A stretch of DNA of 64,000 nucleotides, taken from contig NZ_NQKX01000002.1 in NCBI RefSeq assembly GCF_002252635.1, positions 62,001-126,000 of the forward strand. The letters are read 5' to 3'. The notes beneath the pieces are model-generated. The model had not been told where the DNA came from. It searched no databases and was given only the letters and a program-made list of their open reading frames with translations. This DNA is from Synechococcus sp. MW101C3. Lineage in GTDB: Bacteria > Cyanobacteriota > Cyanobacteriia > PCC-6307 > Cyanobiaceae. Both the position numbers and the translations under genes were made by a program. Positions within the stretch are counted from its first letter, which is position 1. Each line of letters opens with the position of its first letter. Of the stretch, positions 11,263 through 31,948 are shown piece after piece.

Positions 11263-12174
11263 TCAGCCAGGGTCGTTTTCTACAGCCTCTGGTAGCACCA
11301 GTTCCACAGCTCGCCTGGCCTCACCCAGCACCTGGAACAACACCTGTGGAGTTTCCCGGAGCAGGTCCAGCCAGTGCCCCGGGTATGCCGCGTGGTTTTA
11401 AAGGGCACTGTCGATCTCCAACCGGTCCCCCAGCAGGACTGAACCGAGTTCCGCCACCAGTTCTTCTCGGGCATAGGCCCGAGAACCAAACCGCCCCCTC
11501 AGATCCCGCTGGAGGCAGCTGGCGTGCCCCGTGGAGTGGATCACCTCGTGGGCCCAGGTGGCGTAGAACCCAGCGGCGGAGTGAAAGGCAGCGTGCTCCG
11601 GCAGCTGGATCCGATCGATCTGGAGGAGGTGGCAGGCTCGTTCACCCCCAAAGCTGAGCGGTACCGGCCAGGCCCCCAGCAGAGCTTCTGCTGCAGCCAG
11701 GCGGTCTGGTTCACTGCGCTCCGCCCCAGCTGCTTCTGCCTGCCTCTGCTCCACCCAACCAGCAAGGGCGTCACCTTCCAGGTCGATCGCGTTGAACACC
11801 ACCACGGGCCGGAAGCTCATCCATACCCGGTCTGTATGCGCGTCGTCCGGCTTGATGCCTGGGGTGGCTGTCGATGCGTCCAGGCTCCCCGACCGCTCCG
11901 TGTCACCTGCCACCCGGTTCACCTGCGGCCTCAGGATCCGCACCCCCTGAGAGCCCTTGCGGGGGAAGATCCCTAAAGCTTTGGCCTCAGCAAACCCGCA
12001 CCAGTAGGGCAGCGCTGAAGCCCTCAGGTGCATCCCGAAGGTCAACAGGATCGGGTTCGCTCCCTGGTAGCGATGCCCTGAGAGCAGGTTGACGTGGTGC
12101 CCACCACCGGAGGCGTCCCACTCCCTCCGCCAGGGCGTAGTGCCAGCCTCCAGCAGCTGGATGATCGCCTCCAC
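11263..12174 (-). pseudogene. ardC: ArdC-like antirestriction protein with premature stop
   Basis: The N-terminal ssDNA-binding domain (AIIQLLEAGTTPWRREWD near residue 5, NLLSGHRYQGANPILL near 30) is followed by the zincin-like domain with the metalloprotease motif HEVIHSTGH near 210, then the family block REELVAELG. The frame meets TAA at 11398-11400, yet continues without shift as NHAAYPGHWLDLLRETPQVL to a stop at 11263, the expected C-terminus. One GAA-to-TAA change explains it. The 5' end is also uncertain: protein-like sequence continues upstream in frame without an ATG (GTG near 12183 possible). ArdC proteins protect incoming DNA from host restriction, which fits an island. Confidence 0.8.
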
Positions 12175-13825: not shown

Positions 13826-14215
13826 TCACACCTGAAGATTGGGGCAGATCAGATCGCCGTCCTTGGCGGGATCGCTCTGCCAGCCAGCCAGCAAGTCCTG
13901 CAGTTCCTTCCTGAGTTGCCTGAGCTCCTTGATCTGGCCATCGATCCGCTCGATCTGACGCCCCAGCTGGATCTCGATGTCGCCGCAGGGCAGCTCACCG
14001 GCGTCGTGCACCGCCAGGCAGCCCTGGATTTCCTCCAGGCTGAGCCCCAGGGTCTTGAGCCGACGGATGAACTCCAGGCGCCGCAGGCTCTCTTCAGCGA
14101 ACAGGCGGAAGCCGCCTTCGCTGCGGCCGATCGCCGGGAGCAGCCCCAACTCTTCGTAGTAGCGCAGGGTCTTGACCGGCAGGCCACTGCGGCCAGCGAG
14201 GGCACCGATTTTCAT
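13826..14215 (-). CDS. MerR-family metal-responsive regulator (regulator 1)
   Basis: The N-terminal winged helix (KIGALAGRSGLPVKTLRYYEE near residues 2-22) leads into a long dimerisation helix. The metal-sensing Cys are one at the position of ZntR Cys79/MerR Cys82 (GELPCGDIE, near 85) and one near the end (DLICPNLQV). The middle Cys of the usual loop is missing, which is unlike CueR, ZntR and MerR. It is divergent from the DUF3721 genes across a 20-bp-spaced promoter (14247-14278). Three more copies of that promoter occur at 25245-25276, 25327-25358 and 30160-30191, so it is the best candidate regulator of all four; this is inference. Confidence 0.85.
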   Translation of the reverse strand: MKIGALAGRSGLPVKTLRYYEELGLLPAIGRSEGGFRLFAEESLRRLEFIRRLKTLGLSLEEIQGCLAVHDAGELPCGDIEIQLGRQIERIDGQIKELRQLRKELQDLLAGWQSDPAKDGDLICPNLQV

Positions 14216-14246
14216 GCCAGTCGTGACGCCGATGGCCACCATGGGC

Positions 14247-14278
14247 TTGACTCTCCATTCGTGGGGAGACTCTAAAAT
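14247..14278 (+). promoter_or_regulatory. MerR-type promoter, family A copy 1
   Basis: -35 TTGACT (14247-14252) and -10 TAAAAT (14273-14278) are 20 bp apart, the stretched spacing that MerR regulators correct. The spacer holds the dyad CTCTCC/GGGGAG. It faces the DUF3721 gene at 14307. Confidence 0.8.
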
Positions 14279-14306: not shown

Positions 14307-14522
14307 GTGAACCGTATCGCCCTGGCTTTTGTCCTGCTGGCCGCTGGCTGCCTGTCCCCTGGCGCCGCCCGCGCCCAGGCCTACGACATGTTCCCGAGCA
14401 AGGCCGCTGCGGAAGTGCGTGCGAAGGAGCTGAAGTGCAGCGGTGTCTTTGCGATGGGCAAGGACTGGATGCCGTGTCAGAACTTTGATGTCTATCAAAA
14501 GGCCGTTTCCAAGGAGAAGTGA
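14307..14522 (+). CDS. secreted DUF3721-family small protein
   Basis: The start is GTG at 14307, about 22 bases after the predicted transcription start. A signal peptide (residues 1-24, ending ARAQA) is followed by the DUF3721 core: MFPSKAAAEVRAKELKCSG then FAMGKDWMPC. Two Cys (KCSG, MPC) frame the core. The mature protein is under 50 residues. The family is cyanobacterial and of unknown function. Here it is under a MerR-type promoter and followed by a second copy, which points to a periplasmic metal role by inference. Confidence 0.82.
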   Translation: MNRIALAFVLLAAGCLSPGAARAQAYDMFPSKAAAEVRAKELKCSGVFAMGKDWMPCQNFDVYQKAVSKEK

Positions 14523-14568
14523 CTCCACATTTCTGCTCTGTTTCCTTTACCCACGCGGTTACCACTCG

Positions 14569-14823
14569 ATGAATCAGCACCACGCCATCCCCCTCTTGAA
14601 AGGAAGCCGGTGGCCTCTGCTGGCTGCCCTTGCAGCGACGACCTTCTCCCCGCTCTTCATCACTCCGCCCGCCGCCGCGCACATGAAGGGCATGTTCAAA
14701 ACAAAGCAGGAGGCGGAGCAGCGCGCTGCTGAGCTCAAGTGCAAAGGAACTTTTGCGATGGGCTCCTTGTGGATGCCCTGTGCCAATGAACAGCAACTGC
14801 ACAAGGCGCTTCAGAACGAGTGA
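14569..14823 (+). CDS. secreted DUF3721-family small protein, second copy
   Basis: An 84-residue protein with a signal peptide ending near AAAH (residue 38) and the same core as its neighbour: MFKTKQEAEQRAAELKCKG then FAMGSLWMPC. It begins 46 bases after the first copy's stop and its own stop overlaps the next start, so three genes form one operon. The two cores share the spacing of both Cys and the Trp-Met-Pro-Cys end. Confidence 0.82.
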   Translation: MNQHHAIPLLKGSRWPLLAALAATTFSPLFITPPAAAHMKGMFKTKQEAEQRAAELKCKGTFAMGSLWMPCANEQQLHKALQNE

Positions 14824-24484: not shown

Positions 24485-25222
24485 TCAAAGACGGAACAGC
24501 GCGTCGTACTTGAAGTACTCCGGCTTGCGCAATCCCTCCACCGCCAGCATCCTGCGCAGTTCGATGATCTCGGCGCGCTGGGCCACGATCACGCCGCGAG
24601 CAAAGCGCCGGATTGTGGTGTTTGTGCTCTTGGCCAGGGCGTCGTGGGCCATCATCAGTGCCCCGGCGTGGTGCTCAAGCATGCCCTCGAGGAACCACAC
24701 CACCCTGTTCTCCTTGGTGGGGAGCTCGCCCATCATCCGCATGCCATCGATCTGGGCCTGGCTCATGCGCGTGAGGCCGGAGAGGCTGTTCGGATCACCG
24801 CCGCTCGCCAGTGCCACCGGGTAGACGGGTGCCTGGGGGTACCAGGCCTTGCGCCACAGGCCCATCGCCCGGATTTCGTTGGCCTGATCGCGCCAGATCG
24901 TATTGCCCAGAGCACCGACACCAGGGGAACCGATGCCGAACACAAATTCGCTCATTCGCAGCGCGCCGGTGTGGTGCTGCACCATCCCGTCAATGAAGCG
25001 CAGGTCGTAGGTGGCACCGGCCGGGCCCACGTCGTGGGCGTGGCCGGCATGGGCCGGGGCGGATCCGGCCGGAGCAGACATCCCAGGCATGTTCATCATC
25101 CCTGGCATGCCCTGGTGCCCTTCGTGATTCATGCCACCGGGCATCTGGGCCAGGGCAGGAGCCGCAACGGAGAGGGCAGAGGCCAGACCGATCAGGGTGG
25201 CGGTGAAGCGGAATGGGTACAT
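24485..25222 (-). CDS. secreted DUF305-family protein (second copy)
   Basis: A signal peptide (residues 1-26, ending ALAQ) is followed by a Met/His/Gly-rich segment (MPGGMNHEGHQGMPGMMNMP) and two DUF305 units: DGMVQHHTGALRMSEFV near 85 and EGMLEHHAGALMMAHDAL near 180. The His-His and Met residues suit periplasmic copper or silver binding. The start at 25222 precedes the signal peptide and lies 23 bases past the -10 of a MerR-type promoter. The Cu(I) ATPase follows, so sequestration and export appear to be co-expressed. Confidence 0.88.
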   Translation of the reverse strand: MYPFRFTATLIGLASALSVAAPALAQMPGGMNHEGHQGMPGMMNMPGMSAPAGSAPAHAGHAHDVGPAGATYDLRFIDGMVQHHTGALRMSEFVFGIGSPGVGALGNTIWRDQANEIRAMGLWRKAWYPQAPVYPVALASGGDPNSLSGLTRMSQAQIDGMRMMGELPTKENRVVWFLEGMLEHHAGALMMAHDALAKSTNTTIRRFARGVIVAQRAEIIELRRMLAVEGLRKPEYFKYDALFRL

Positions 25223-25244
25223 GGCGGCAAGGTGAGACCTCCCA

Positions 25245-25276
25245 ACGGTATGGTCTCCCCTTGACAGGAGAGTCAA
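25245..25276 (-). promoter_or_regulatory. MerR-type promoter, family A copy 2
   Basis: On the minus strand, -35 TTGACT (25276-25271) and -10 TACCGT (25250-25245) are 20 bp apart, with dyad CTCTCC/GGGGAG in the spacer. It drives the DUF305-Cu ATPase genes and is divergent from copy 3. Confidence 0.8.
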
Positions 25277-25326
25277 GGGCCAAGGGCGCAGCAAATCTGC
25301 GCCGGTCGATGCCGGTCATCACGGGC

Positions 25327-25358
25327 TTGACTCTCCACCTGAGTGGAGGCACTACGGT
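25327..25358 (+). promoter_or_regulatory. MerR-type promoter, family A copy 3
   Basis: -35 TTGACT (25327-25332) and -10 TACGGT (25353-25358) with a 20-bp spacer and dyad CTCTCC/GTGGAG. It drives the DUF411 and multicopper oxidase genes. Confidence 0.8.
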
Positions 25359-25382: not shown

Positions 25383-25880
25383 ATGGACTCGACATCTTTC
25401 CGCGGTCATTCGCGGTTCTTTGGGCTGCTGCTGGGGGTCGGCGCTGTTGCTGCCGTTGTCTCAGCGGGCGGGTCGCTCCCGGCACGCGCCAGTGCTCCAG
25501 CCCTGATGCCGGTCACCTCCTACCGATCCGCGAGCTGCGGGTGCTGCAAGGGCTGGGTGCAGCACATGCGCGCCAATGGCTTCGCAGTGCGCGATGTCGT
25601 GGTGGCCGATGTCGGCGTCGTCAAGCGACGCCTGGGGGTCCCCGCCCGCCTGGCCTCGTGCCACACCGCCGAAGTGGCTGGATTTGCCCTTGAGGGTCAC
25701 GTCCCTGCCGCCGATGTGAAACGGCTGCTGCAGAAACGCCCACCTGTGGCGGGCCTCGCCCTTCCGGGGATGCCCCTGGGCTCCCCAGGCATGGAATCGG
25801 CCTACGGCAAGGAGGCGTTCACGGTGATGGCCTTCACGCGGACCGGAGCCATCAGCAGTTTCTCCCAGCACGGCAAATGA
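25383..25880 (+). CDS. secreted DUF411-family metal-binding protein
   Basis: A signal or anchor segment (about residues 12-38) precedes the DUF411 core: SASCGCCKGWVQHMRANGF near 50, then RLGVPARLASCHTAEVAGF near 84 and EGHVPAADVKRLL near 104. The CxCC motif and the later SCHT pair are the proposed metal ligands of this family, which is common in copper and silver resistance loci. It is the first gene after the MerR-type promoter at 25327 and lies 10 bases before the oxidase. Confidence 0.9.
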   Translation: MDSTSFRGHSRFFGLLLGVGAVAAVVSAGGSLPARASAPALMPVTSYRSASCGCCKGWVQHMRANGFAVRDVVVADVGVVKRRLGVPARLASCHTAEVAGFALEGHVPAADVKRLLQKRPPVAGLALPGMPLGSPGMESAYGKEAFTVMAFTRTGAISSFSQHGK

Positions 25881-25890
25881 GGACCCAACC

Positions 25891-27369
25891 ATGACCACTC
25901 CCCTTCGGCGACGCCAGGTGCTCGGACTTGGGCTCGCCGGCCTCGGCACGGCCGTGGTCGGCCCACTTCTCTGGGATCGGGTGCAGCACTCCGCCGCCCG
26001 TGCGCAGCCCGCCGGTGCGACGCGGCTGGGCTCCGTTGGCGGCGTGGCCGATCTGGAGCTGGTGGCCAGCGCCACGCCGGGGAGGCTTCCCGGTGGCCCC
26101 GCCACGTTGCTCACCTACAACGGCCGCTCGCCCGGCCCGCTGCTGGAGGTGAATGCCGGCGATCAGGTGCGGCTCCTGCTGCGCAACGACCTCCAGGAAC
26201 CCACCAACCTGCATTTCCACGGACTGCACATCCCGCCTACCGGATCAGGCGACAACGTCTTCCTGACCGTGCCGCCCGGTGGCTCCTTTTCCTATGAGTT
26301 CACGCTCGCCAAAGACCACCCGGCCGGCCTCTTCTACGTGCACCCCCATCACCACGGTCACTCGGCCGATCAGGTGTTCGGTGGTCTCGGGGGCGCCCTG
26401 GTGGTGCGCGGCAATCTGGATCGGATTCCAGAGGTGGCGGCCGCCAGCGAAAGCGTGCTGGTGCTCAAGGACTTCGCCAGCGCCGACGGTACGGCTGAGG
26501 CCGGCATGGGGATGGGGATGGAGCGCATGCTCGGCCGGGAAGGTCCACTGCTGACGGTGAACGGGGAGCTCAATCCCGGCCTGGCGATCCCCAGCGGCGG
26601 TCTGCTGCGGCTCCGTTTGCTCAATGCTTCCAATGCCCGCATCTACCGCCTCGCCCTGGAAGGGCACCGGATGGTGCTGATCGCCACCGATGGCGGCGCC
26701 ATCGCGACCCCTGAGGCCCTCGACGAACTGCTGCTGGCCCCTGGCGAGCGGGCCGATGTGCTGGTGCAGGGCAACCAGACTCCAGGCAGCTACCGGCTGC
26801 TCAACCTGCCCTACCAGCGCAGTGGCCACATGGGGATGGGCCAGGTGGCGGACGCTCCTCAAACCCTGGCCACCCTCAACTACGCCGGATCAGTGGCGCC
26901 GCTGCCACTCCCAAAAACCCTGATTCCCGTGGCGGCCCTGCCGCAGCCGGAGCGCACGCGCCGCTTCTCCCTGGCCCATGCCATGGGGATGGGAATGGGC
27001 GGCATGCAACACGGCATGGGCGGCGGGGGGATGGGCGGGGGTGGCATGGGCTTCGTGATCAATGGCCAGCCCTTCGATCCAGATCGCATCGACACCCGGG
27101 TGTCGCTGAGTAGCACGGAAGACTGGCTGATCGTCAATGACGATGTGATGGATCACCCCTTCCACTTGCACGTCAATCCCTTCCAGGTGATCAGCCGCGC
27201 CGGCCGCCCCGAAGCCCAGCGCCGCTGGAAGGACACCTTGCAGGTGAAGGCTGGCGAGGAGGTGCGGATCCGCGTCACGTTCAAAGATTTCACGGGGCGC
27301 ACCGTCTACCACTGCCACAACCTCGACCACGAGGATCTGGGGCTGATGGGGGTACTGCAGATCGACTAG
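25891..27369 (+). CDS. Tat-exported multicopper oxidase (CueO/CopA type)
   Basis: The N-terminus has a Tat-like RRRQVLGLG signal. The four copper-site motifs are in order: HFHG near 108, HPHHHG near 150, HPFHLH near 422 and HCHNLDHEDLGLM near 473, which together make the type 1 and trinuclear sites. A Met/Gly/His-rich insert (GMGMGGMQHGMGG, near 365) resembles the Met-rich cuprous-oxidase region of CueO. It likely oxidises Cu(I) to Cu(II) in the periplasm. It is cotranscribed with the DUF411 gene. The length of 492 residues is normal. Confidence 0.92.
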   Translation: MTTPLRRRQVLGLGLAGLGTAVVGPLLWDRVQHSAARAQPAGATRLGSVGGVADLELVASATPGRLPGGPATLLTYNGRSPGPLLEVNAGDQVRLLLRNDLQEPTNLHFHGLHIPPTGSGDNVFLTVPPGGSFSYEFTLAKDHPAGLFYVHPHHHGHSADQVFGGLGGALVVRGNLDRIPEVAAASESVLVLKDFASADGTAEAGMGMGMERMLGREGPLLTVNGELNPGLAIPSGGLLRLRLLNASNARIYRLALEGHRMVLIATDGGAIATPEALDELLLAPGERADVLVQGNQTPGSYRLLNLPYQRSGHMGMGQVADAPQTLATLNYAGSVAPLPLPKTLIPVAALPQPERTRRFSLAHAMGMGMGGMQHGMGGGGMGGGGMGFVINGQPFDPDRIDTRVSLSSTEDWLIVNDDVMDHPFHLHVNPFQVISRAGRPEAQRRWKDTLQVKAGEEVRIRVTFKDFTGRTVYHCHNLDHEDLGLMGVLQID

Positions 27370-27442: not shown

Positions 27443-27853
27443 ATGCGCCACGTCCTGACCCTGTTGCTGTCCTGCTGCTGGCTGGCCGCTCCGGCGCTGG
27501 CCGCGGATATGGAGGCGTGCCGGAACCTGTTGGAGCAACGCGATGCCCTGGCCGAGCAGGCCATGAAGGCCGAAATCGCCCTGGTTCGAACCATCCGCGA
27601 ACGAATCTGCTCGGTCCTCAGCCAGCAGGCCGATGGGGCCAATGCCAACGACCGCAAAGTGCGCACCATCGACTACCAGGCCCTGCTCGACTGCCGCCAC
27701 AAGTCGGAAGTACAGCTGCTGCGCAACCAGCAGGTTCTCTACGTCAACCGCCAGCAGTTCAGGTTCTACGTGGCGGCTGGAGCCAAGCTGGCCCGGCAAG
27801 CCGATGGGCTGATGCAGCAGATGCAGAATCAGGAGTGTCCCAAGCTGCGTTGA
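27443..27853 (+). CDS. secreted hypothetical protein (136 aa)
   Basis: A clear signal peptide (residues 1-21, ending ALAAD) is followed by a mostly helical mature protein with long Glu/Gln/Arg-rich helices and four Cys (EACRN, ERICS, LDCRH, QECPK). No family is recognised. It lies 73 bases after the multicopper oxidase in the same direction and just before the promoter of the Zn/Cd/Pb-type ATPase, so it could belong to either unit. Confidence 0.65.
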   Translation: MRHVLTLLLSCCWLAAPALAADMEACRNLLEQRDALAEQAMKAEIALVRTIRERICSVLSQQADGANANDRKVRTIDYQALLDCRHKSEVQLLRNQQVLYVNRQQFRFYVAAGAKLARQADGLMQQMQNQECPKLR

Positions 27854-27939: not shown

Positions 27940-30153
27940 ATGGCGGAACCTTGCTGCAACAGCGGAACCAGCGGGCAGAACGCTGGAGCCACCATGGAGC
28001 CGCAGCCGGAGCTGGCAAGCGCCAGAGAAGCGCTGTTTCGGATCAGCGCAATGGATTGCGCCACCGAGGAAACCGAGATCCGCCATGCCCTCTCAGGTCT
28101 CGACGGCATCCGCAGCCTGAGGTTCGTGCTGGCCGATCGCGTTCTGGCGATCGATGCCGAAGCAGCAGCGCTCAACTCCGCCCTTGCCGCGATCCGCCGT
28201 TTGGGATTCAGCCCGGAGCCGATCAGCGCCGATCACCGACAGACAGCCGATCAGATCCGTACCGAACGGCGCCTCGAACGGCTCCGCCTGGGGGGTTCCC
28301 TGGCACTGGCGCTTACGGCGGAGCTCCTGCATCTGGTCGTTCCCGCCTACCCGGGCTATGAACTGGTGGAGATCGGGATCGCCATCGCCGCGATCGCCCT
28401 GGCGGGCTTCTCCGTATTTCGCAAGGGCCTTGCGGCCCTGCGCCAGGGCCGGCTCAACATCAATGCATTGATGAGCGTGGCGGTCACGGGCGCCTTCCTG
28501 ATCGGCCGCTTCCCGGAAGCCGCCATGGTGATGGCGCTCTATGCCGTGGCCGAGGCGATCGAGGTGCGGGCGGTGGAGCGGGCCCGCCAGGCGATCACCA
28601 GCCTGATGGCTCTGGCTCCCGATGAGGCGGAGATCCGCCAGAGCGATGGCCGCTGGCAGCGCGTGACCGCCAGTGCTGTGGCCATCGGTGATGTGGCGAG
28701 GGTCCGCCCGGGGGAACGACTGCCGCTTGATGGCACGGTGCTTTCTGGCGTAAGTGCGATCGATCAGGCGCCGATTACCGGCGAAAGCCTGCCGGTCGAC
28801 AAAGGCCCAGGTGATGAGGTGTTTGCGGGCACCATCAACCAGGGCGGCGCCCTGGAAATCCAGGTCACGGCACCTGCCTCGCTGAGCACCCTGGCGCGCA
28901 TCATCCAGGCCGTGGAGGAAGCCCAGGCCTCCCGTGCTCCGATCCAACGCTTCGTGGATCGCTTTGCAGCCCGCTACACCCCGGCGGTGTTCGTGGTGGC
29001 CCTGGCCGTGGCCCTGCTGGCGCCACCCTTGCTGGGGTTCACCCCCCTACAGGCGATCTACAAGGCCCTGGTGCTGCTGGTGATCGCTTGCCCCTGCGCT
29101 CTGGTGATCGCCACACCAGTCACGGTGGTGAGCGGCCTGGCCACCGCCGCCCGCCGCGGCATCATCATCAAGGGCGGGCTTTACATCGAGGAGGCCCGCA
29201 AGATCAAGGTGCTGGCCCTCGACAAGACCGGCACAATCACCCTGGGCCAGCCCCAGCTGGTGGCCTTCTCCCCTCAGCAAGAAGGGGCAGACGCTGGCGT
29301 TCTCAAACAGTGGGCCAGCAGCCTGGCGGAGCGCTCCGACCATCCGGTGTCACGGGCCATCGCCGCAGGCCTCGATGGTGAGCGGCTGGCCGTGGAGTCC
29401 TTCGAGGCCCTCCCCGGAAGGGGGGTGCTGGGCGTGATCGCGGGGCGGCCGCTGATGCTGGCCAACCACCGCTGGATCGAGGAGCTGGGGCTCTGCTCCA
29501 GCGACCTGGAAGCATCGATGCAGGTCCATGAGCGCCAGGGTTGCTCGCTCAGCCTGCTGGCGGATGACAGCGGCGTGCTCGCCCTGATTGCCGTCGCCGA
29601 CACCGTTCGGCCCAGCTCCGAGGCCGCCATGGTGGCCCTGCGGGCCCTCGGCGTCACCCCGGTGATGCTCACGGGCGACAACGCAGCCACCGCCGGTGCG
29701 ATCGCGGCCCTGGCCGGCATCGAGGAGGTGAAAAGCAACCTGCTGCCCCAGGATAAGCTCGAGGCGGTGGCCGATCTGCAGGCCCGCTATGGATTCGCGG
29801 CCATGGCCGGCGATGGCATCAACGATGCCCCGGCTCTGGCCCAGGCGGACATCGGTTTCGCGATGGGGGCAGCCGGCACCCACATCGCCGTCGAAGCGGC
29901 CGACGTGGTGATCATGAACGACGATCTGATGCGCGTACCGGAAACGATCGCCCTTTCGCGCCGCACCTTTCGAATCCTGCGCCAGAACATCGCGCTGGCG
30001 TTGGGAATCAAGGCCATTTTTCTGGTGCTCACCGTGGCCGGTAACGCCACGATGTGGATGGCGGTCTTTGCGGACATGGGCACCAGCTTGATCGTGATCG
30101 CCAATGGTCTGCGGCTGCTCCGCAGACCCAATCTCCTCACCCTTCCTGGCTAA
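27940..30153 (+). CDS. Zn/Cd/Pb-type P1B ATPase (ZntA/CadA-like)
   Basis: The 737-residue pump starts with a Cys pair (MAEPCCNSG) and one degenerate HMA-like domain whose metal motif is MDCATEE, a form seen in ZntA/PbrA-type pumps. Core motifs are TGES near 283, CPC near 383, DKTGT near 427 and GDGIND near 624. The last helices contain FADMGTSLIVIANGLRLLR, where the Asp before MGTS is the P1B-2 (divalent Zn/Cd/Pb) signature. A 19-bp-spaced MerR-type promoter lies directly upstream. It exports divalent metal from the cytosol. Confidence 0.92.
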   Translation: MAEPCCNSGTSGQNAGATMEPQPELASAREALFRISAMDCATEETEIRHALSGLDGIRSLRFVLADRVLAIDAEAAALNSALAAIRRLGFSPEPISADHRQTADQIRTERRLERLRLGGSLALALTAELLHLVVPAYPGYELVEIGIAIAAIALAGFSVFRKGLAALRQGRLNINALMSVAVTGAFLIGRFPEAAMVMALYAVAEAIEVRAVERARQAITSLMALAPDEAEIRQSDGRWQRVTASAVAIGDVARVRPGERLPLDGTVLSGVSAIDQAPITGESLPVDKGPGDEVFAGTINQGGALEIQVTAPASLSTLARIIQAVEEAQASRAPIQRFVDRFAARYTPAVFVVALAVALLAPPLLGFTPLQAIYKALVLLVIACPCALVIATPVTVVSGLATAARRGIIIKGGLYIEEARKIKVLALDKTGTITLGQPQLVAFSPQQEGADAGVLKQWASSLAERSDHPVSRAIAAGLDGERLAVESFEALPGRGVLGVIAGRPLMLANHRWIEELGLCSSDLEASMQVHERQGCSLSLLADDSGVLALIAVADTVRPSSEAAMVALRALGVTPVMLTGDNAATAGAIAALAGIEEVKSNLLPQDKLEAVADLQARYGFAAMAGDGINDAPALAQADIGFAMGAAGTHIAVEAADVVIMNDDLMRVPETIALSRRTFRILRQNIALALGIKAIFLVLTVAGNATMWMAVFADMGTSLIVIANGLRLLRRPNLLTLPG

Positions 30154-30159
30154 GCAGCC

Positions 30160-30191
30160 TTGACTCTCCTCTAGAGTGGAGACTGTATGGT
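30160..30191 (+). promoter_or_regulatory. MerR-type promoter, family A copy 4
   Basis: -35 TTGACT (30160-30165) and -10 TATGGT (30186-30191), 20-bp spacer, dyad CTCTCC/GTGGAG. It begins 7 bases after the ATPase stop and faces the small Cys-tail peptide gene. Confidence 0.8.
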
Positions 30192-30215
30192 GGTTTTTCC
30201 TTCAATGACTGTGTG

Positions 30216-30413
30216 ATGAAGCTCACTCCGTTGGTTTTATTGCTTTTGGCTGGGATTGCCGTTGGCTCCATGGCCGCTCCTGCCCAGGCGAATGAATCCT
30301 CCATTCCCACCAGTACCGAGCGGAATCGAGATTCCAATACAGCTCTCCCGGTTGTCGCACAACAACCGGGAGGTGGCACACCTTCCACGGGGGGATGTTG
30401 CTGCTGCAGGTAG
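30216..30413 (+). CDS. small secreted peptide ending in a four-Cys tail
   Basis: The ATG lies 25 bases after the -10 of a MerR-type promoter. The 65-residue product has a signal peptide (residues 1-26: MKLTPLVLLLLAGIAVGSMA, then APAQA), a short polar mature region of under 40 residues, and ends GGGTPSTGGCCCCR. Four consecutive Cys on a flexible Gly tail would bind a soft metal such as Cu, Hg or Cd in the periplasm, like a minimal metallothionein; this is inference. It is not a known family to me. The promoter match ties it to the copper-type regulon, not to the Zn/Cd/Pb pump that precedes it. Confidence 0.75.
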   Translation: MKLTPLVLLLLAGIAVGSMAAPAQANESSIPTSTERNRDSNTALPVVAQQPGGGTPSTGGCCCCR

Positions 30414-30486: not shown

Positions 30487-30903
30487 TCAGGCGACTGGCT
30501 TTCTGCTTTCGGTGCACCGATTCAGCTCGGCGAGAATTCCGCAGATCTCCCCTTGATCCGGCTGCTGGCAGAGCCCTCTGAGCTCCCGCAGTTGATCCTG
30601 AAGTTTGTGCAACTCATTCACGCGGGCATCGACCTCGGCGATCTTCTCGTCCAGCAGGGCATTCACCGTCTGACAGCTTCCTGAGGGTGTGTCGAGCGCC
30701 CCGATCAGGATGCGGACCTCCTCCAGGCTCATGTCAAGGCTGCGGCAATAGCGGATGAAGCGTAACTTCTCCGCATGGCGCGGCGAATAGAGGCGGTAGT
30801 TGCCATCGGTGCGCTGTGGCAGCGGCAGCAAGTGCTCGCGTTCGTAATAGCGGATGGTTTCGATCTTGACCCCGGTGGACCGGGCCAACTCGCCGATCTG
30901 CAT
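30487..30903 (-). CDS. CadR/PbrR-like MerR regulator (regulator 2)
   Basis: The winged-helix N-terminus (QIGELARSTGVKIETIRYYER) is followed by a dimer helix and all three metal-sensing Cys of divalent MerR proteins: GSCQTV (near 78), RGLCQQ (near 112) and GEICGILAEL (near 121). The last block is typical of Cd/Pb/Zn sensors (CadR, PbrR, ZntR). Start chosen at MQIGEL; eight residues further upstream are also open. It is divergent from the VKOR gene across the family B promoter at 30966-30996, and a second family B promoter precedes the P-type ATPase. Confidence 0.9.
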   Translation of the reverse strand: MQIGELARSTGVKIETIRYYEREHLLPLPQRTDGNYRLYSPRHAEKLRFIRYCRSLDMSLEEVRILIGALDTPSGSCQTVNALLDEKIAEVDARVNELHKLQDQLRELRGLCQQPDQGEICGILAELNRCTESRKPVA

Positions 30904-30965
30904 GGATTCATCCCCTTGGGTTGGCAAGTCGGGCGGACAAGCCTCCCTGGCGCAACGCTAGGCCC

Positions 30966-30996
30966 TTGACCCTGAAGCCACTTCAGGCTTTTCAAT
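30966..30996 (+). promoter_or_regulatory. MerR-type promoter, family B copy 2
   Basis: -35 TTGACC (30966-30971) and -10 TTCAAT (30991-30996), 19-bp spacer, with the perfect dyad CCTGAAG/CTTCAGG. It faces the VKOR gene. The -10 covers an in-frame ATG at 30995, so that ATG cannot be the start on this transcript. Confidence 0.8.
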
Positions 30997-31024
30997 GGCC
31001 GTATCTCAGCCGTTCTCTCCCCCT

Positions 31025-31948
31025 GTGAGCAGCGCTACGCGAACCAAACCTCTCTCCAGCCGTCGATCGAGCCAGGAGCCAGGCCGGCCCTGGGTGCGCC
31101 TCACCATGGCCGTGCTCGCCACGATCGGCATGATCGATACCGGCTCGATCACCGCCAAGCGCTGGGGTTGGATCGGCAGCCTGTCCTGTCCGGGCGGTAG
31201 CGATGGCTGCGACAAGGTGCTCGGCAGCGCCTGGGGCACGCTGCTGGGCCAGCCACTTTCTCTCTATGGGTTCCTGGCCTACGGCACGGTGCTCCTGCTG
31301 GCCCTGATGCCGTTACTGCGAGGAGGTCTGCGCGTCCCAGCCTCGGAGGGCAATCGCTGGGCTCTGTTCCTCGTCAGCTGCGGCATGGCCGTCTTCAGCC
31401 TGGTGCTGATGGGGCTCCTGGTCTTCGAGATCAAGGCCTTCTGCACCTTCTGTGTGGTCTCAGCCGCCCTCAGCCTCGCGCTGTTCCTGTTGAGCCTTGT
31501 TGGAGGTGGCTGGATCGACCGCAACCAACTGATCTTTCGCGGAGTGATGACAGTCCTCCTTGTTGGTCTGCTGGGGCTGGGCTGGGCAGCATCGGCGGAC
31601 CAGCCTGTCGCTCAAAGCGGACGGGCGGCTCCAGCTGTCATCAGCGCCAGTTCGCCGGCCAAGATTGCCCTGGCGGAGCATCTGAGCAGCGTCGGCGCCC
31701 GGGTGTTCACGGCGTACTGGTGCCCCCACTGCCATGACCAGAAGGAGGCCTTCGGCAAGGAGGCCGCCGCCAAGCTCCAGGTGATCGAATGCGCCGAAGA
31801 CGGCGCCAACAGCCAAGCGCAGCTGTGCAAGCAGCAGGGGGTTCAGGGCTATCCCAGCTGGCAGATCAAGGGCGTCGTGGATTCGGGCGTCAAGCCACTG
31901 AACACCCTCGCCGATCTCAGTGGCTACACCGGTCCGCGTGACTTCTGA
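31025..31948 (+). CDS. VKOR-thioredoxin fusion (disulfide-forming membrane protein)
   Basis: Four to five membrane helices form a VKOR domain with the loop Cys pair (SLSCPGGSDGCDKVLGS) and the active CxxC (FCTFCVVS, near 150). A periplasmic thioredoxin-like domain follows with YWCPHCHDQKEAFGKEAA near 237. This fusion makes and passes disulfides to exported proteins and is the standard cyanobacterial form. The start is set at GTG 31025 because the ATG at 30995 overlaps the -10 of the MerR-type promoter; ATG 31106 is another option. Its control by a metal promoter is unusual. Confidence 0.88.
   Translation: MSSATRTKPLSSRRSSQEPGRPWVRLTMAVLATIGMIDTGSITAKRWGWIGSLSCPGGSDGCDKVLGSAWGTLLGQPLSLYGFLAYGTVLLLALMPLLRGGLRVPASEGNRWALFLVSCGMAVFSLVLMGLLVFEIKAFCTFCVVSAALSLALFLLSLVGGGWIDRNQLIFRGVMTVLLVGLLGLGWAASADQPVAQSGRAAPAVISASSPAKIALAEHLSSVGARVFTAYWCPHCHDQKEAFGKEAAAKLQVIECAEDGANSQAQLCKQQGVQGYPSWQIKGVVDSGVKPLNTLADLSGYTGPRDF

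Follow-up and report, generated by a model that had tools for sequence, protein, structure and literature searches.

The window analysed here, 64,000 nt of Synechococcus sp. MW101C3 DNA (contig NZ_NQKX01000002.1, positions 62,001–126,000), contains a 65-residue open reading frame that ends in four consecutive Cys codons and lies between a heavy-metal ATPase gene and a MerR-type regulator gene. This raises the questions of whether so short a frame is a gene, which regulator its promoter answers to and which metal its product might bind. Peptides this short that bind metal escape annotation, and the handling of copper in the cyanobacterial periplasm is poorly known. Features of the locus are listed in Table 1.

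Table 1. Positions in the window of the peptide gene, its promoter, further copies of the promoter motif and genes discussed in the text
Feature	Position (nt)	Strand	Remarks
Cys4-tail peptide gene	30216–30413	+	65 residues, from ATG at 30216 to a stop ending at 30413
Predicted mature part of peptide	about 30291–30410	+	
Tail GCCCCR	30393–30410	+	Four Cys codons at 30396–30407, TGT TGC TGC TGC
MerR-type promoter of peptide gene	30160–30191	+	-35 TTGACT, 30160–30165; -10 TATGGT, 30186–30191
Motif copy	14247–14268	+	Upstream of two DUF3721 small secreted-type proteins (14307–14522; within 14443–14823)
Motif copy	25255–25276	-	Upstream of DUF305 (CopM-like) gene in 24485–25294 (-)
Motif copy	25327–25348	+	Upstream of DUF411 (25383–25880), then multicopper oxidase (25891–27369)
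Two motif copies on another contig			Before a glutaredoxin-domain protein; before a second DUF305 gene
MerR-family regulator MerR2	13826–14242	-	MerR Pfam matches
P1B-2-type Zn/Cd/Pb ATPase	27940–30153	+	Upstream of peptide gene; own CadR-type promoter TTGACCCTGAAGTGACTACAGG at about 27889
CadR/PbrR regulator	30487–30927	-	Convergent with peptide gene
VKOR-thioredoxin-like disulfide-forming protein	30995–31948	+	Pfam VKOR; CadR-type promoter TTGACCCTGAAGCCACTTCAGG at about 30966; outside motif regulon

The translation, MKLTPLVLLLLAGIAVGSMAAPAQANESSIPTSTERNRDSNTALPVVAQQPGGGTPSTGGCCCCR, reads as a hydrophobic signal peptide, an AxA cleavage motif, a low-complexity body and a GGCCCCR C-terminus. 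The candidate signal peptide has K2, a hydrophobic core and A23-x-A25, and both alanines are invariant in four homologues. The mature peptide of the MW101C3 copy would comprise ~40 residues with no His and no Met, and therefore the four Cys are its only strong soft-metal ligands. AlphaFold modelling (single sequence, low confidence) predicts the signal helix alone, with a pLDDT of 60, and leaves the mature peptide without predicted structure. The whole window contains 929 stop-to-stop frames of 40 aa or longer, and at least four Cys among the final six residues are found in the peptide frame alone. In simulated windows such Cys tails arise at 0.05 per window, and never together with a signal-peptide-like start.

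Intact copies of the peptide number four, one in the host and three in relatives, among 400 genomes drawn from the cyanobacterial family of the host. Identities of the homologues are 85% (genome G197), 80% (G113) and 55% (G107), and the G107 homologue has the extra residues QPMKNMN beyond the Cys tail. Positions M1, A23, A25, G59, G60 and C61–C64 are invariant in the four copies, none of which has an internal stop; in the tail of G197 a Cys codon differs synonymously and the residues are kept. The promoter is conserved together with the gene in all three relatives. Third codon positions are the most variable in most homologue pairs, and dN/dS is 0.22–0.31 in the divergent pairs (those with G107) and 0.28–0.53 in close pairs, with values mostly of about 1 or higher in frames whose wobble position is a different one. 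The homologues, the dN/dS values and the simulated windows rule out a chance open reading frame, and thus the 65-residue frame is a real gene under purifying selection. The original prediction had called for a peptide of secreted type with four terminal Cys, to be abandoned if relatives did not conserve the tail; the gene stands, its secreted character being read from the sequence, and the tail is kept in every intact relative. A leader peptide or attenuator was considered as well and is rejected, since the next gene is the convergent CadR gene and no co-directional gene follows.

Two further copies have decayed, and both have lost the Cys tail. In genome G179 the frame is interrupted by a TAA and all four Cys codons of the tail have changed, and the promoter there carries TTGAGT in place of TTGACT with a spacer one base shorter. 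In G128 the promoter and signal peptide are gone, a TGA is present and the tail reads CYYRK.

One of the homologues belongs to Cyanobium sp. N.Huapi 1H5, and no further relatives were found elsewhere in the genus of that strain. Named genomes and 60 sampled relatives, covered in an initial seeded scan, gave no convincing homologue. None convincing was found outside the family among 386 genomes drawn from the phylum, and seeded scans of 84,980 species genomes produced no relative beyond the Cyanobium copy. Weak tblastn-type matches (E 0.001–0.01) occur in other genomes, with no comparable small gene at those inspected, and neither plasmids nor viral contigs yielded a copy. The absence of matches in Pfam, NCBIfam, PHROG and PDB speaks against identity with a known family, in keeping with the original remark that no family was recognised. 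The peptide is apparently a rare, undescribed family.

The -35 and -10 elements of the peptide promoter are separated by a 20-nt spacer, which is the MerR-type spacing, and the spacer holds the dyad CTCC-N8-GGAG. The ATG lies 25 nt downstream of the -10 element, the distance originally given. In most copies a conserved tiny frame (ATG ACT GTG TGA, 30205–30219) overlaps the peptide start codon (TGATG); this may represent translational coupling to the peptide, or chance.

The exact motif TTGACTCTCC-N8-GGAG (TTGACTCTCCN8GGAG) occurs six times in the 3-Mb genome, four times in the window and twice on another contig, versus no occurrences in the reversed control. A survey of 271 family genomes, each at least 90% complete, shows the motif in 47, and the controls are nearly empty. 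Most sites were fetched and 106 were inspected; at 99 of these, a frame matching one of seven listed kinds is found within about 200 nt, namely DUF305 (39), DUF3721 (27), DUF411 (13), heavy-metal ATPase (10), the Cys4 peptide (4), glutaredoxin-like protein (4) and multicopper oxidase (2). Where the sequence of a motif-preceded ATPase was followed far enough, it shows CPC, YN and MxxSS, the signatures of Cu(I) P1B-1 ATPases. The motif targets can be regarded as copper-type because CopM, a DUF305 protein of Synechocystis, binds copper, is induced by it and occurs in both the periplasm and the medium (PMC4335983). Membership of the peptide in the regulon of this promoter is well supported, and the promoter set is copper-like by gene content. 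The assignment of the promoter to the copper set, and not to the neighbouring Zn/Cd/Pb set, is therefore upheld, as the motif copies precede copper-type genes and the CadR-type promoters differ. The motif also provides a handle on the whole regulon, with its DUF305, DUF3721, DUF411, multicopper oxidase, copper ATPase and glutaredoxin-like genes.

The likely activator, judging from gene arrangement and co-occurrence, is MerR2 and not the adjacent CadR, because MerR2 co-occurs with motif copies and adjoins them. In the window, 5 nt separate the MerR2 start from a copy of the motif, and in most of ~30 loci that hold an orthologue the gene is divergent from a copy at 5–42 nt. Every one of the four genomes whose peptide is intact has an orthologue of at least 76% identity. 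Both MerR2 and exact motif sites are absent from G128, where the peptide copy is the most damaged; the correlation is imperfect, however, since G179 retains MerR2 and has lost the peptide. MerR2 scores 74.4 bits against the CueR equivalog TIGR02044, below the cut-off of 147.4. Its residue at position 77 is Cys (HDAGELPCGDI) and not Ser; it aligns with the metal-site Cys of CadR and is retained in relatives. Of the two C-terminal Cys, one appears to be missing from MerR2. Sensors of Cu(I)/Ag(I) in the MerR family usually carry Ser77, and a CueR variant with Cys in place of Ser77 is responsive to divalent ions as well as to Cu(I) (PMC11591864). The Cys77-type residue and the apparent missing C-terminal Cys thus suggest a divalent or broad soft-metal response. 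With its copper-type targets, MerR2 may be an exception to the rule by which residue 77 sets selectivity, and the likely regulator of this regulon would then not conform to what is usual at this residue in copper sensors. Two MerR2-type regulators are encoded in the genome, that of the window and one at G000:C8:171169-171561, which are 74% identical.

The genes on either side of the peptide belong to a Zn/Cd module. The ATPase has the CPC and DMG motifs without YN/MxxSS, and its best non-generic matches are Zn/Cd/Pb ATPases. The regulator scores 160 bits against NCBIfam TIGR02047, above the cut-off of 151.45. In ~14 closely related modules, including the second module of the same genome, the gap between ATPase and CadR genes is about 50–70 nt and empty. 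The gap is ~340–360 nt in cassette-bearing modules and ~220 nt in G128, where the copy is damaged. Because the related modules have an empty gap and the peptide promoter is not of CadR type, the peptide is an accessory promoter-gene cassette inside the Zn/Cd module, wired to another regulator. The second module, which has no peptide cassette, is outside the window at G000:C2:202500-202919.

What, then, might the peptide do? The favoured reading, given slightly better than even confidence, is that it belongs to the copper regulon, reaches the periplasm through Sec and binds a soft metal, Cu(I) or another, with its Cys4 tail. On soft-metal stress, MerR2 would switch on the copper-type regulon through its TTGACTCTCC-N8-GGAG promoters, the peptide gene being one member. 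Sec would export the peptide and signal peptidase would cleave it after Ala25, leaving a short product of ~40 residues, probably unstructured, in the periplasm or released. The four consecutive C-terminal Cys would sit on a flexible Gly/Pro/Ser/Thr linker and would most likely form a small thiolate cluster around Cu(I) or a different thiophilic ion. Metal would thereby be buffered beside the DUF305 protein, the DUF411 protein and the multicopper oxidase of the same regulon. We infer the activator, the export, the metal binding, the identity of the metal and the benefit of the peptide. Counted against the copper reading are the Cys77-type residue of MerR2 and its apparently missing C-terminal Cys, the position of the gene inside a CadR (Cd/Pb/Zn) module, the presence of VKOR in the cell, by which the tail thiols could be oxidized rather than metal-bound, and the low number of intact copies, only four, together with the retention of MerR2 in G179 after loss of the peptide. 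If the reading is true, the peptide is a minimal, genetically portable exported thiolate ligand. A wider proposal falls a little short of an even chance: an undescribed family of exported unstructured peptides with four terminal unmodified Cys as the sole metal site, which would act as a periplasmic or extracellular thiolate trap of a MerR-type copper regulon and be carried as a ~300-bp promoter-gene cassette between an efflux ATPase and a regulator.

The location of the gene could be taken differently. Since the peptide is always found between a Zn/Cd-type ATPase and CadR, it might be a periplasmic trap for divalent metals (Cd, Pb, Zn, Hg) that serves the P1B-2 ATPase/CadR module, with MerR2 as a broad soft-metal sensor; the Cys77-type residue, given the behaviour of the CueR Ser77 to Cys change (PMC11591864), is in keeping with this. 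Yet the peptide promoter is of the MerR2 set and not the CadR set, the other motif targets are copper-type genes, and most CadR modules, the second one of this genome among them, have no peptide, and the divalent-metal trap is considered unlikely. A role in thiol chemistry, in which the product would be a periplasmic redox peptide and no metal store, its tail either reducing Cu(II) or sacrificed in thiol exchange with VKOR and the glutaredoxin-like protein, draws on the VKOR gene just beyond CadR and on the glutaredoxin-domain protein in the motif regulon. Four adjacent Cys without CxxC would be an atypical redox active site, however, and the VKOR promoter is of the CadR type, which makes this role improbable.

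Two other explanations concern the nature of the product itself. The combination of a Sec signal peptide, Cys and a copper context is also that of bufferins and oxazolins (PMC12452194), and the gene could accordingly encode a RiPP precursor of this kind, with the tail Cys converted to copper-chelating heterocycles. The MNIO enzyme (PF05114) is absent from all six genomes, with the same search positive in control genomes; there is no adjacent maturation gene and no curated-family match. The lack of MNIO was taken to rule out a bufferin/oxazolin RiPP, and a precursor of this kind is given very little credence. Conservation of the 3′ flank, which is roughly as high as that of the peptide gene, might point to a metal-induced RNA within which the frame arose by chance. 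The low dN/dS of the divergent pairs compared with frames not sharing the wobble position, the conserved signal peptide and Cys tail and the stop-free intact copies all argue for a protein. Rfam shows no match, and shuffled sequences fold at least as well as the 3′ stem, by which an RNA family was rejected; a non-protein origin of the frame is scarcely credible.

Taken as a copper-regulon peptide, the product would resemble known small periplasmic metal-buffer proteins in its presumed action; it is a member of no tested family. With CueP, PcoE, CopK and CusF it shares small size, export (predicted for the peptide), a copper-resistance regulon and a proposed function in the buffering or chaperoning of periplasmic copper. 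Several proteins of the CueP/PcoE/CopK/CusF type use Met/His ligands. The peptide differs from this group in its lack of a Pfam, NCBIfam or PDB match, in a 40-residue mature part without predicted fold and in having the terminal Cys4 run as its only ligands. CueP is CueR-regulated (as cited in PMC4335983). CopM is likewise an exported cyanobacterial copper-resistance protein, and DUF305 genes share the motif regulon of the peptide, but CopM is of another family and is under the CopRS two-component system, whereas the peptide is under a MerR-type promoter. Bufferins and oxazolins are MNIO-modified and are associated with copper stress (PMC12452194); the peptide genomes, in contrast, have no MNIO, and the four Cys are adjacent and at the very end. 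Bacterial metallothioneins also present a short Cys-based set of soft-metal ligands, but the peptide is predicted to be exported and has merely four Cys, all adjacent, and it matches no metallothionein family in Pfam or NCBIfam.

Several minor observations concern other genes of the locus and the regulon. A 136-aa protein with a signal-like start (27443–27853), located between the multicopper oxidase and the P1B-2 ATPase, has no Pfam or NCBIfam match. An ArdC-like anti-restriction/metallopeptidase protein (11398–12174) lies near the metal island, which suggests a mobile element. The tandem small secreted-type DUF3721 proteins are the commonest motif targets after DUF305, and no mention of DUF3721 was found in the literature searched. 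In genome G265, a 46-residue metallothionein-like open reading frame, MTCTCSLPTPQPSEPVELCPCGCGCTADCTCSTDGSCDCGCSCSKG, is found downstream of the same motif (L125:1068-1208), and a second copy (L126) has an early stop and looks decayed. In G113 the motif (L043, site 17690, minus strand) precedes a 360-aa unclassified membrane-like protein (MNLSPFRSRSRILNLLLTSLLFTPGWQ...), which is a possible further member of the motif regulon.
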